From Acidimicrobiales bacterium (GTDB lineage Bacteria > Actinomycetota > Actinomycetes > Mycobacteriales > QHCE01), in NCBI GenBank assembly GCA_003243955.1, contig QHCE01000033.1, positions 1 through 41,407 of the forward strand: a stretch of DNA of 41,407 bases. Reading direction: 5' to 3'. Under the pieces are notes generated by a model, which worked only from the letters and a program-made list of their open reading frames with translations, was not told the DNA's origin and did not search any database. Below, piece by piece: positions 26,196-31,701 of this stretch. Every line of letters starts with the position of its first letter. The first letter of the stretch is position 1. Both the position numbers and the translations under genes were made by a program.

Positions 26196-27272
26196 ATGCC
26201 TATAGCAAGGATTTCCTACACTGAAGAAGACGCGTGGCGAGACCTGCCTATTTTACTTGGGGCAGCAGGCTTAAATGAAAGCTTAAAGAATGAAGCCGAG
26301 CTTCTTCACTACAATCAGAACAGCCTATTTCGAATTCCTTCTCTGGGAATAGTTATGCGGAATGTTCGACCGAATCCGCTGGCTGCCGGACGCGCCAAAA
26401 GGGTAGCAAAACTTGGGGAGTATTTTAGGCAATCCAGTGCCCCCACAGTGAGGTTGGCTGATGGTTTTACCCAACCTATTAACGTTGGAGACCTTTGGGC
26501 CACAATATGGAATGAAGAGGAGCGTAGGCCTAAGGATCAGATTAAAGGTCGCCATATGGGTTCCGCGCTTAAAGCGTTTCATGAGATAGATATTAGCGTC
26601 CCGGAATTGGCAGCTCTGCCTCGCTGGCAAAATCCGCTAGCGGATAGTAAAAGCCGTATCAGGCAAGGCTTCACAAAAGAACTTATAACTAAAGAGGAAT
26701 ATGAAAAACTGATCGCGTTGATGGATGAGCTTGAAAGAGATATTAGAATTGTTCGGCAACAGCTAGAAAAAATGTTTACATTACTTCACGGCGATCCACA
26801 AATAGCAAATTTATTGTTTAGAGATGACGAGCCAATATGGTGTGATTTTGATTCAACTATGATAGGTCCGTCACAAGCGGATCTTGCGGTAACCGCGGTG
26901 AACGCTATCCGCTTCAATAAGTCTGAACGGCATAAACAAGCGGCAGCTGCTTACGGCCAAGATGTAATGCAGGATGAACATTGGGATCTTTTCCGGCGGA
27001 TGCGAGAGGCAAAGTTGATTGCTTCTAATATTTTGAACCTCAAGGATCACCCAGCTATCCGGCCTGAATTTGAAAAAAGGTACCGGAGTGTTTTCGAGGA
27101 AGGTAATGAAATTTGGATTCCTTACACTGAAGCAAAGGAAAACTACGACAGCGAGAATCCAGGTTGGCTCGACCAACAGGCCTCTACTCAGACCGCGGCC
27201 AAGGTAACAGCAGATGCGGCTAGGCGGCCTCGCCCTGACTGTAGGCGACCCCGCAATCCGAGACCGAGATAG
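26196..27272 (+). CDS. AT-rich aminoglycoside-phosphotransferase-fold (APH) kinase, probably horizontally acquired
   Basis: 358 residues. The APH/choline-kinase C-lobe is clear: catalytic loop LLHGDPQIANLLF (H198, D200, N205) and metal-binding segment WCDFDSTMIGPSQADLA (D217). The N-lobe hinge and nucleotide loop are poorly conserved, so the substrate may be a small-molecule alcohol, a nucleoside antibiotic or a cofactor; resistance is only one option. ATG 26196 has a near-perfect Shine-Dalgarno (AAGGAGGATC). The DNA is visibly AT-rich (AAA, GAA, AAT, ATT, TTA codons) against GC-rich neighbours. The composition flips back near 27165-27180, and the final ~30 residues (QASTQTAAKVTADAARRPRP...) are Arg/Pro/Ala-rich, as if the original stop was lost and translation runs into host DNA. 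Confidence 0.8.
   Translation: MPIARISYTEEDAWRDLPILLGAAGLNESLKNEAELLHYNQNSLFRIPSLGIVMRNVRPNPLAAGRAKRVAKLGEYFRQSSAPTVRLADGFTQPINVGDLWATIWNEEERRPKDQIKGRHMGSALKAFHEIDISVPELAALPRWQNPLADSKSRIRQGFTKELITKEEYEKLIALMDELERDIRIVRQQLEKMFTLLHGDPQIANLLFRDDEPIWCDFDSTMIGPSQADLAVTAVNAIRFNKSERHKQAAAAYGQDVMQDEHWDLFRRMREAKLIASNILNLKDHPAIRPEFEKRYRSVFEEGNEIWIPYTEAKENYDSENPGWLDQQASTQTAAKVTADAARRPRPDCRRPRNPRPR
27163..27177. repeat. Small palindrome at the AT-rich/GC-rich junction
   Basis: GTTGG (27163-27167) and CCAAC (27173-27177) flank CTCGA at the point where the AT-rich kinase sequence gives way to GC-rich host sequence. It could mark a recombination scar; five-base arms alone are weak evidence. Confidence 0.3.
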
Positions 27273-27292
27273 CATACCTCGGCTGCGATGCG

Positions 27293-27329
27293 TTGGAGTA
27301 AGTCACTGCCACGGGTTAGACTTCCGGAT
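27293..27329 (+). promoter_or_regulatory. Predicted leaderless promoter of the MBL-fold gene
   Basis: TTGGAG (27293-27298) as -35, an 18-bp spacer and TAGACT (27317-27322) as -10 place transcription start about seven bases later, at the ATG at 27330. No Shine-Dalgarno precedes this ATG, consistent with a leaderless transcript. The gene therefore need not depend on the AT-rich kinase gene upstream. Confidence 0.45.
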
Positions 27330-28301
27330 ATGACGCTGCTGCCCGTCGATGGACTGGAGGTCCGCGTTCTTGTCGACAACGTCACCGACGGTTTGTCATC
27401 GACTCCCGCACATGTGGAGAGCGAATTTTCCTATGCCGTCCGGCGTGGTTTGCTGCGAGTCAGCGGTCGCTCGCTGTGCTGCGCTGTCCACGGACTTTCA
27501 CTGCTGTTAACGGCGCGCCGCGGTGGGCGAGAACGCACCGTTCTCTTTGATACCGGGCCTGAGGAGTACGCGTTCGAGCGAAATGCGACCCGGTTGGGCG
27601 CACCGCTGGGATCGGTTGAGGGAATCGTTTTGTCACACGGGCATTGGGACCATTGCGGTGCTGTCTTCACGGCCCTCAACTTGGCGCGGCAGGCGTCCGG
27701 TCGCACCGTCCCGGTATATATGCATCCGCAGATGTTTCGCACTCGGGCGCTACAGCTTCCCGGCGGCGCCCTCGAAGTGTTCGACGATGTGCCAAGCGTG
27801 CAGGACCTGCAAGCCAACGGAGCGGAGGTCGTGTCGACCGGTGAGCCGCAGACACTGCTCAATGGCGTGTTTCATCTATCAGCCGAAATTCCCCGCGTGA
27901 CGGAGTTCGAGCCAGGAATGCCCGGTCAGGTACGCAGGACCACCGATGGCCATTGGGAACCAGACGAGCTGGTGCTCGATGAGCGTTGGCTTGCGGTCCA
28001 CGTTGCCGACAAGGGCCTGGTTGTGTTCAGCGGCTGTTCCCACGCCGGGATCATCAATGTGCTTGAGCACTGTCGCGCCAGCTTCCCTCACGTCCCAGTC
28101 CACGCGGTCGTGGGAGGTCTGCACCTTTCGGGTCCAAACGAGCAACACATCGACCAGACCGTGCAGGCCATGCGCGGCTATGCTCCGCAGTCCATCGCGG
28201 CGGCACACTGCACCGGCTGGCGAGCCGTCCGGGCCCTAGCTGAGGCGTTCGGCGACGATGTGGTTGCACCCTCGGCCGTCGGTAAGCGCTACAGCTACTG
28301 A
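27330..28301 (+). CDS. MBL-fold metallohydrolase of the COG1237 (dihydropterin aminobenzene-phosphate synthase-like) type
   Basis: 323 residues from ATG 27330; an upstream in-frame ATG (27288) is inside the junction region. The metal site is in S-H-G-H-W-D-H-C-G (near residue 107), the HxHxDH signature with Trp, followed by the second-ligand segment SGCSHAGIINVLEH and the late motif AVVGGLHLSG...IAAAHCTGW. VRVLVDNVTDG at the N-terminus and this C-terminal GG-H-L pattern are the hallmark of COG1237, whose archaeal members make a methanopterin precursor; bacterial members are mostly of unknown function. GC-rich, unlike the AT-rich genes on both sides. Confidence 0.88.
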   Translation: MTLLPVDGLEVRVLVDNVTDGLSSTPAHVESEFSYAVRRGLLRVSGRSLCCAVHGLSLLLTARRGGRERTVLFDTGPEEYAFERNATRLGAPLGSVEGIVLSHGHWDHCGAVFTALNLARQASGRTVPVYMHPQMFRTRALQLPGGALEVFDDVPSVQDLQANGAEVVSTGEPQTLLNGVFHLSAEIPRVTEFEPGMPGQVRRTTDGHWEPDELVLDERWLAVHVADKGLVVFSGCSHAGIINVLEHCRASFPHVPVHAVVGGLHLSGPNEQHIDQTVQAMRGYAPQSIAAAHCTGWRAVRALAEAFGDDVVAPSAVGKRYSY

Positions 28302-28346: not shown

Positions 28347-28841
28347 CTACTGCTGCGCGTAGAAAAGCCTTTCAATAAGCTTGAGGTCATTCGTTGGCTC
28401 TTTGTCGGTTATATTTTGAATCATGGTTTTCTCTTCTGGGTCTTCAAAGACAAGCGTATAAAGCGGAGTGTTCTTGTTGTACTGGCAGCCGGGAAATAAC
28501 AAGTGATGATGCCATTCGATACCCTGAGTACGTAGCTCCTTGGCTCTTTCCACTATCCGTTTCGTGTCTTCCGAAGGACCAGGCTTTCCATCGATTTGCT
28601 CTTTTTGCAAAATTTTACTGCCGTGCAGTAAAGGAGCAAGCTCTTGACCCAGATTGTGCTCCAGCTTGTCTGAGTAGTGGACTAAATTACTATTATTTTC
28701 CAGGTCTTCAAATACAAAAGCATATTGAGGTCTAACGTTAAATGCGCAGTTGGGTGTCAGAATATGGAAATGCCACCGCGCTCCTCTATTTGCTAACATG
28801 TGTGCCGCTTTTCTGATGGTCTCAAGCGGTACTTCTTTCAT
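28347..28841 (-). CDS. AT-rich protein with two copies of a W-H-x-H-x5-C module
   Basis: 164 residues from ATG 28841, which lies nine bases after a strong AGGAGGTG; an in-frame GTG at 28853 overlaps that site and is rejected. Two modules repeat every ~87 residues. Module 1 has W23-H24-F-H26, C32, N35, Y40 and VFED (43-46). Module 2 has W110-H111-H-H113, C119, N122, Y128 and VFED (131-134). The shared pattern is G-x-x-W-H-x-H-x-L-x-P-x-C-x-x-N. The paired His and Cys suggest metal or cofactor binding, one site per module. No signal peptide. I recognise no characterised family. Like the APH-fold gene at 26196 it is visibly AT-rich, which points to transfer. It is convergent with the MBL-fold gene. 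Confidence 0.75.
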   Translation of the reverse strand: MKEVPLETIRKAAHMLANRGARWHFHILTPNCAFNVRPQYAFVFEDLENNSNLVHYSDKLEHNLGQELAPLLHGSKILQKEQIDGKPGPSEDTKRIVERAKELRTQGIEWHHHLLFPGCQYNKNTPLYTLVFEDPEEKTMIQNITDKEPTNDLKLIERLFYAQQ

Positions 28842-29023
28842 CACTTCATGCACCTCCTCGTTTATGAGTGTCGAATCTGCAGTAGTGCAGCGTCGGAGTG
28901 TGGAACGGCTCCCAGCCCTAAAATGGTGACACGTCTGAGTTTATGGCCATGCTGCCCAGGCCCGTCTCGGCTGGTCTGGCGACAGACCCGGAGTATGCAG
29001 CTTGGGATGGGGTGGTCTGAGCC

Positions 29024-30173: not shown

Positions 30174-30902
30174 ATGGCTGAGCTGGAGGCCTTGCGGGCC
30201 GCGGTGTTGGCCGCGCTCGACGATCCAGATGCAGCCGCTGGCGTGGACGCGGTGGGGCGTGTGTGTCGAGCGTGTGTGCGACTGTTGCCGGTGGACGGCG
30301 CCGCGGTGTCGATCATGTCCGATGCGCAGAATCGGGAAACGGTCTATGCCAGTGACGCGGTGAGCGTCGCGTTGGGGGAGTTGCAATTCTCTCTGGGCGA
30401 GGGCCCATGTTTCCAAGCCTATGCCACCGGTGGCCCGGTGCTAGTGCCCGATCTGGCCAAGGCCGCTGCGCCGCACTGGCCGGTGTTCGCCGCGCAAGTG
30501 GCTGACTATCCAGTGGGGGCGTTGTTCACGTTCCCGGTGCAGATCGGAACGATCCGGTTGGCCACCCTAGACACCTACCGAACAACAGCCGGGCCGCTGA
30601 GCGCGGCGGAGTTGTCGGTGGCACTGCAGGTGGCCGACATTGCTGCGCTGGCATTGTCGGGACTCGCCGCCGGGGATGACTCGTGGCTGGATGAGGACGG
30701 GCGGTGGTTGGAAGAATCATCGACGATGCGGCATCGTCAGGTGCACCAGGCCACCGGTGTGCTGATCATCCAATTAGAACTACCCGCCGGGCAGGCGCTG
30801 TCGCGTATGCGGGCGTATGCGTTCAGCCACGACCGGCCGTTGGCCGACATTGCCGCGGATATAGTCGGCCGCCGGCTGCTATTGGTTGAAGACCAGGGAT
30901 AA
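30174..30902 (+). CDS. GAF-ANTAR regulator 1
   Basis: 242 residues. A GAF sensor (about 10-160: CRACVRLLPVDGAAVSIMSDAQ, FSLGEGPCFQAYATGGPVLVPDLAK, ALFTFPVQIGTIRLATLDTYR) is followed by an ANTAR domain (about 180-235: RHRQVHQATGVLIIQLELPAGQALSRMRAYAFSHDRPLADIAADIV). ANTAR proteins bind paired hexaloop hairpins in nascent RNA and prevent termination. The ANTAR tail here is a somewhat degenerate version (usual QAKGVLM reads QATGVLI). ATG 30174 has a weak ribosome site (GCGAG). The next gene follows 49 bp later on the same strand and encodes a second protein of the same build, so the two probably act or dimerise together. Confidence 0.9.
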   Translation: MAELEALRAAVLAALDDPDAAAGVDAVGRVCRACVRLLPVDGAAVSIMSDAQNRETVYASDAVSVALGELQFSLGEGPCFQAYATGGPVLVPDLAKAAAPHWPVFAAQVADYPVGALFTFPVQIGTIRLATLDTYRTTAGPLSAAELSVALQVADIAALALSGLAAGDDSWLDEDGRWLEESSTMRHRQVHQATGVLIIQLELPAGQALSRMRAYAFSHDRPLADIAADIVGRRLLLVEDQG

Positions 30903-30951
30903 AGGGAAAGATGCAACGTCTAGACTTGCCCGTATACCTAAGGAGAACGTG

Positions 30952-31701
30952 ATGGCCATACGTGAAGGGCGGGTCGCCCAGGCGTTCGTGGAGTTGGCCG
31001 ACACGCTGGTCGATGACTATGACGTTGCTGACCTGCTGCATACCCTGGCGGAGCAGTGCGTGCGGTTGCTGGATGCCGCCGCGGCCGGGCTGCTGCTGGC
31101 CGATCAACGTGGCAGCCTGCAGGTGCTGGCCTCCTCAAGTGAAGGGGCCAGGCTGCTAGAGTTATTCCAGCTACAAACCGAAGAGGGTCCCTGTGTGGAG
31201 TGTTTTCACACCCAGGCCCCGGTGCTGGTCGCCGACATTGCCGCGCAAAGCCACCGGTGGCCGCAATTCGCCGCCGCAGCCAGCCGCGAGGGGTTCGTCT
31301 CGGTGCATGCACTGCCGCTGCGGCTACGGACCCAGACCATCGGAGCGCTGAACCTGTTCGGTCGTGAACGTGGTGCACTGTCGGAAGAGGATCTGCGACT
31401 GGGCCAGGCGCTGGCCGATACCGCCACCATCGGCATCCTGCAGGAACGCGCGATCCATCACAGGGAAATCTTGGTCGAACAGTTGCAGACCGCCTTGAAC
31501 AGCCGGGTGATCATCGAGCAGGCCAAGGGGGTGCTCGCCACGGTCGGCAACCTTGACATGGGTGCGGCGTTCATCGTGTTGCGAACCTATGCTCGCAACC
31601 ACAGTGCCCGACTGAGCGAGGTCGCCCGCGACCTTGTCGAACGTGACCTCGATGCCACCACTGTGCTGGCCGGGCACCTAGCGCCGCGACCGACTATCTG
31701 A
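30952..31701 (+). CDS. GAF-ANTAR regulator 2
   Basis: 249 residues from ATG 30952 (AGGAGAACGTG upstream); the 30886 frame is rejected. The GAF domain (about 15-170) includes LHTLAEQCVRLLDAAAAGLLLADQRG, the ligand-lining TEEGPCVECFHTQAPVLVADI and VHALPLRLRTQTIGALNLFG. ANTAR domain (about 185-240): ALNSRVIIEQAKGVLATVGNLDMGAAFIVLRTYARNHSARLSEVARDLV, complete with the canonical EQAKG core. It should link an unknown small-molecule or redox signal to RNA-level antitermination. It follows regulator 1 with a 49-bp gap, likely one operon. Convergent with the CDF transporter gene. Confidence 0.92.
   Translation: MAIREGRVAQAFVELADTLVDDYDVADLLHTLAEQCVRLLDAAAAGLLLADQRGSLQVLASSSEGARLLELFQLQTEEGPCVECFHTQAPVLVADIAAQSHRWPQFAAAASREGFVSVHALPLRLRTQTIGALNLFGRERGALSEEDLRLGQALADTATIGILQERAIHHREILVEQLQTALNSRVIIEQAKGVLATVGNLDMGAAFIVLRTYARNHSARLSEVARDLVERDLDATTVLAGHLAPRPTI

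Follow-up and report, generated by a model that had tools for sequence, protein, structure and literature searches.

A tandem WHxH protein outside the family libraries, with a predicted metal site in each module, in an actinobacterium-like genome

The window, by which we mean the whole stretch of 41,407 nucleotides analysed here (contig QHCE01000033.1 of an Acidimicrobiales bacterium), carries on its minus strand, at positions 28347 to 28841, a complete gene for a 164-residue protein with two W-H-x-H motifs, delimited by its open reading frame, by full-length relatives and by a shared start. The ATG at 28841 is the same start as that of the relatives L018 (MQEVSLNEL) and L040 (MKEIIIQEL) in a 24-member alignment, and the Shine-Dalgarno sequence GAGGAGGTG, read from the sequence at 28851 to 28859 of the minus strand, ends 9 nt ahead of it, which bears out the signal pointed to in the earlier note on this DNA; an in-frame GTG at 28853 is a possible alternative start. 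A consensus sigma-70 promoter and an intrinsic terminator were sought around the gene and neither was found. The flanking genes include those for GAF-ANTAR regulators and a sigma factor, which would fit an actinobacterium. Two adjacent GAF-ANTAR regulator genes at 30174 to 31701 overlap by 17 bases. A metallo-beta-lactamase-fold gene (27288 to 28301) is convergent with the WHxH gene, with 45 bp between the frames, and we see no reason to link the two.

The AT-rich composition remarked upon earlier was measured against 101 genes of the host, sampled across ten contigs. The WHxH gene has a GC content of 44.0% against 60.8 +/- 3.7% (z -4.6), below every gene of the sample, and a GC3 of 47.3% against 65.4 +/- 5.8% (z -3.1). 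The low GC is limited to this gene and is about 60% again in both flanks. A phosphotransferase (APH) gene two genes off, at 26196 to 27272, is also AT-rich (GC 47%, GC3 42%); we considered it as part of the same import and rejected it, as 192 Patescibacteria gave one weak partial match and its plasmid relatives are those of Streptomyces, Nocardia and Nonomuraea.

Module 1 reads W23-H24-F-H26-x5-C32-xx-N35 and module 2 reads W110-H111-H-H113-x5-C119-xx-N122, at an offset of exactly 87 residues. On the minus strand of the window the first motif (W23-H24-F-H26-I-L-T-P30) occupies 28752 to 28775, followed by Cys32, Asn35 and Glu45 (to Asp46) at 28704 to 28748, and the second (W110-H111-H112-H113-L-L-F-P117) occupies 28491 to 28514, followed by Cys119, Asn122 and Glu133 at 28443 to 28487. 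The equal spacing claimed before holds at 87 residues for the Trp, the two His, the Cys and the Asn, whereas Phe-Glu-Asp, at 44-46 and 132-134, is off by one with an offset of 88. Throughout the 24-member alignment A4 the residues W23, H24, H26, C32 and E45 of the first module and W110, H111, H113, P117, C119, N122 and E133 of the second are invariant, so that both modules keep the His/Cys/acidic set (H24, H26, C32, E45 and H111, H113, C119, E133), and the loss of the His/Cys pattern in homologues, named earlier as an outcome that would speak against two binding sites, is not seen. Conservation of at least 90% extends to L28, N35, H112, P149, L153 and E157. The Asn, said before to be kept in both modules, is invariant in the second and only nearly so in the first. 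E157 is conserved in module 2 only, and the modules are asymmetric in the second helix. The ten residues common to the two halves (W, H, H, C and E in each) make the chemistry of the family directly testable.

Profiles of the two modules match each other in hhalign over 72 columns with 29% identity (probability 99.6, E 2.1e-24), and because of this match the halves are homologous by duplication and chance is ruled out. The duplication proposed in the earlier note is further borne out by single-module relatives of 74-79 residues: one in L043 (1489-1719; 74 residues from its Met; ...WHHHYLPPEC...ILEC...), one in L052 (1471-1731; 79 residues; ...WHHHYMPPGC...ILEN...) and a third in L051, close to a contig end. 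They retain W, H, H, C and E, and the Asn is lost in L043 and L052. It is likely that there was one ancestral module, later duplicated.

Pfam, NCBIfam and PDB, the libraries searched, do not contain this family. None of 20 members passed any Pfam or NCBIfam cut-off, the window protein by itself gave no passing match to a Pfam, NCBIfam or PHROG family, no solved structure was found for the family by sequence or by fold, and a literature search for the motif found nothing; the protein is still of no recognised family, as it was first described, and the match to a well-known domain that would have told against it did not turn up. The sole Pfam family near the window protein, CpXC (PF14353; E 5e-4), is a chance match, since it lies below the cut-off (20.5 bits against 25.4), concerns one of the 20 members, and covers a stretch (28-106) that begins past H24 and H26 and stops before the module 2 motif. 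A match of one single member to Pfam Vsr was likewise put down to chance.

Single-sequence searches yielded no convincing match in the host's order or phylum, those within its own phylum (E 0.01-1) being short, scattered and in no case confirmed by profile. Plasmids of Shinella and Sinorhizobium carry full-length relatives with 30% identity (tblastn, E 2e-14). A search of the genome collection with alignment A1 gave 18 loci, among them Candidatus Saccharibacteria UBA5148 (47%), Candidatus ainarchaeum (36%) and a Micrarchaeota archaeon (35%), as well as, at 24-32%, the Alphaproteobacteria Rhodobium, Alloyangia, Hoeflea, Shinella, Gemmobacter, Ancylobacter and Rhizobium and two Proteobacteria MAGs. 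Full-length relatives are thus those of a few Saccharibacteria and other Patescibacteria, of Micrarchaeota-type DPANN archaea and of Alphaproteobacteria. The Shinella 'hypothetical protein' (WLS11068.1, WP_241949867.1) belongs to the same family over its full length, with about 30% identity and all invariant residues, and differs in that its gene is GC-rich and lies in a cluster for amine and amino-acid transport and oxidation. For the phylum of L018, whole-genome profile searches found the family in 5 of 380 genomes (2 of 245 in its class), and for that of L020 in 10 of 295 (3 of 118 in its order); in every group sampled the gene is accessory and rare. The family occurs mainly in Patescibacteria and DPANN archaea, which are ultra-small and dependent on hosts and most of whose genes lack a known function.

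Profile searches of 91 relatives of the host, including one other genus of its family, and of 199 genomes of its phylum found no copy. The tree joins the window protein first to L018, a Saccharibacteria sequence (96/88), and next to L041, whose genome belongs to the same class (91/93); the Alphaproteobacteria all group in a single clade (100/100). The nesting in the tree together with the composition favours a transfer from Saccharibacteria to the host, as seen with a thin sampling of two Saccharibacteria sequences, and the gene called foreign on its composition is now also missing in relatives and placed beside a donor group. The gene is a well-supported case of passage from a saccharibacterial donor to an actinobacterium-like genome; the hosts of cultured Saccharibacteria are mostly Actinobacteria. 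Saccharibacteria live on host bacteria as obligate episymbionts (PMC9040727). The type IV secretion system of Patescibacteria shares homology with conjugation machinery, though in the view of the authors who describe it, it is mostly repurposed (PMC12102498). A viral origin was rejected, viral contigs and phages having given nothing of note and the BFVD fold search no significant match, and so was a plasmid origin, with relatives on Rhizobiaceae replicons only and no match at the DNA level. The earlier note has proved correct in all its main points, to which we add the distribution of the family, its single-module relatives, the predicted fold, the donor group and the gene contexts.

AlphaFold2 predicts for the window protein (19 rows; pLDDT 93.5, pTM 0.85) an alpha-beta-beta-beta-alpha order repeated twice, and for the Shinella member (pLDDT 92.6, pTM 0.86) the same order with two additional N-terminal strands. 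In the window model H24 and H26 are placed on strand 1 (23-28), the corresponding strand of module 2 being 111-115, and strand alternation would allow H24, H26 and E45 to share a face, next to the loop that carries C32. Judging from the conserved residues, the modules probably bind a metal or a cofactor. The best explanation overall, to which we would give an even chance, is an undescribed two-module pseudo-dimer with a predicted metal site in each module, catalytic on small molecules. It would be a small soluble protein whose two homologous modules pack together, each holding a single metal ion, with Zn or Fe the likeliest; the putative ligands would be both strand-1 His, the Cys in the loop between strands 1 and 2 and probably the Glu that ends strand 2, with the Trp as a core residue. 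More tentatively, the site may act on small molecules in metabolite or nucleotide clean-up or in amine catabolism, as a portable and not a core activity; a portable accessory activity would explain the patchy distribution and the changing neighbours. Against a metalloenzyme stands the fact that no solved metalloprotein shares the fold confidently, the best matches being RNA-binding folds. The asymmetry of the modules in the second helix also counts against this explanation.

A small-molecule role is suggested by gene neighbourhoods, a link that was spotted post hoc: transporter and oxidase genes in Alphaproteobacteria and DUF84, NUDIX and Ham1 elsewhere. The search for a repeated neighbour, advised earlier, succeeded within Alphaproteobacteria, where a polar amino-acid ABC transporter, a GntR regulator, an SDR and a DAO-type FAD oxidoreductase recur, joined at some loci by an FMN oxidoreductase, an Asp/Glu racemase and a TPP-dependent E1; across the clades inspected (loci of Alphaproteobacteria, Patescibacteria and DPANN) no common neighbour was found. 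Among Patescibacteria and DPANN, DUF84 NTPase and NUDIX genes lie directly downstream of the single-module gene of L059, DUF84 lies about 3.3 kb from that of L068, a NUDIX gene adjoins the WHxH gene of L058, and Ham1 belongs to the same gene run in L056 and lies about 2 kb off in L018. By eye only, we recognised an NDK-like gene in L057 and, in L062, genes resembling those for thymidine/thymidylate kinase and dCTP deaminase. The patescibacterial run of L056 (3428-5664) has the appearance of a clean-up operon, with peptidase-E-like, WHxH, histidine-phosphatase-like and Ham1 genes and, farther along, one that is YbaK-like; Pfam confirms Ham1 only.

One archaeal lineage speaks against a small-molecule role, as it has the gene in a protein-conjugation cluster. 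In three related genomes (L064-L066) the WHxH gene follows, in the same direction, a JAMM gene and a winged-helix-like gene, with E2, Ub-like and E1 genes nearby (by Pfam in L064), the E1 being convergent to this operon-like JAMM-WHxH run. The cluster of E1, E2, Ub-like and JAMM genes is also accompanied by Nre and an ATPase-like gene in these Micrarchaeota-type MAGs (L064, 424-5648; L065, 530-3253; L066, 651-5233).

This arrangement adds to the main rival reading, in which the metal sites have a structural role and the protein, a pseudo-dimer like dsRBD pairs or SRP9/14, is an adaptor that binds RNA or protein; we consider it rather unlikely. Tandem dsRBDs top the Foldseek lists for both models, and dsRBDs (e.g. 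Loqs-PB, TRBP, DGCR8) have the same alpha-beta-beta-beta-alpha order and are often in tandem. The SRP9/14 Alu-RNA-binding heterodimer likewise sets two such modules abreast and matches the window model with a probability of 0.97. Some neighbours are related to tRNA as well: TruD adjoins the WHxH gene in L020 (Pfam) and lies near it in L060 by eye, and AlaX-like and Dus-like neighbours of some WHxH genes were read by eye. However, the fold matches are weak: with either model nothing in the PDB falls below 1e-3, the dsRBD matches range from E 2e-3, the best, to 1e-1, TM per module is about 0.45-0.53, and the SRP9/14 match has E 1.1e-2, TM 0.45 over the pair and 13% identity, and is to a eukaryotic protein in which we know of no conserved His/Cys site. 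The dsRBDs show no sequence relation to the family, their Pfam families matching none of the 20 members at E 1, and on inspection of the 24-member alignment their RNA-contact motifs, the GPxH loop and the KKxAK helix, are absent. What the WHxH family conserves is a set of its own, of Cys, His and Glu, and not a basic surface.

Distinctly less probable, in our view, is a protein free of metal, in which each module has the thiol catalytic site of a hydrolase or transferase, built from its Cys, His and Glu. The invariant residues of a module (a single Cys, two His and one Glu) would suit it, as would the archaeal member of G868, which has two Cys in all, both in the motifs. Yet H-x-H on one strand face with a loop Cys is a common pattern for a metal site, and an invariant second His is rarely needed in a catalytic site and seldom retained in both duplicated halves. 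A decaying or contaminating fragment, functionless in this genome, would agree with the single sporadic occurrence, the foreign composition and the lack of a recognisable promoter, but is very improbable given the full-length open frame with every invariant residue intact, the strong Shine-Dalgarno sequence and the host-like flanks on both sides within one contig.

Returning to the archaeal cluster, and still reading the two modules as predicted metal sites, we may even suggest, as a long shot, that the DPANN WHxH protein stands in for the missing E3 beside E1, E2, ubiquitin-like and JAMM proteins, and that the whole family is a class of metal-built adaptors or transfer factors moved among archaea, Patescibacteria and their hosts. 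The characterised Caldiarchaeum cascade includes a RING E3 (PMC5654768). No RING pattern was found in a 19-kb stretch around the WHxH gene in G868, nor in L064 and L065, and the modules differ from RING-type E3s, whose C3HC4/C3H2C3 cross-brace is absent from them, each having a single invariant Cys beside two to three His. In G1077 two tandem WHxH genes lie in a cluster of E1, E2, Ub-like and JAMM genes.
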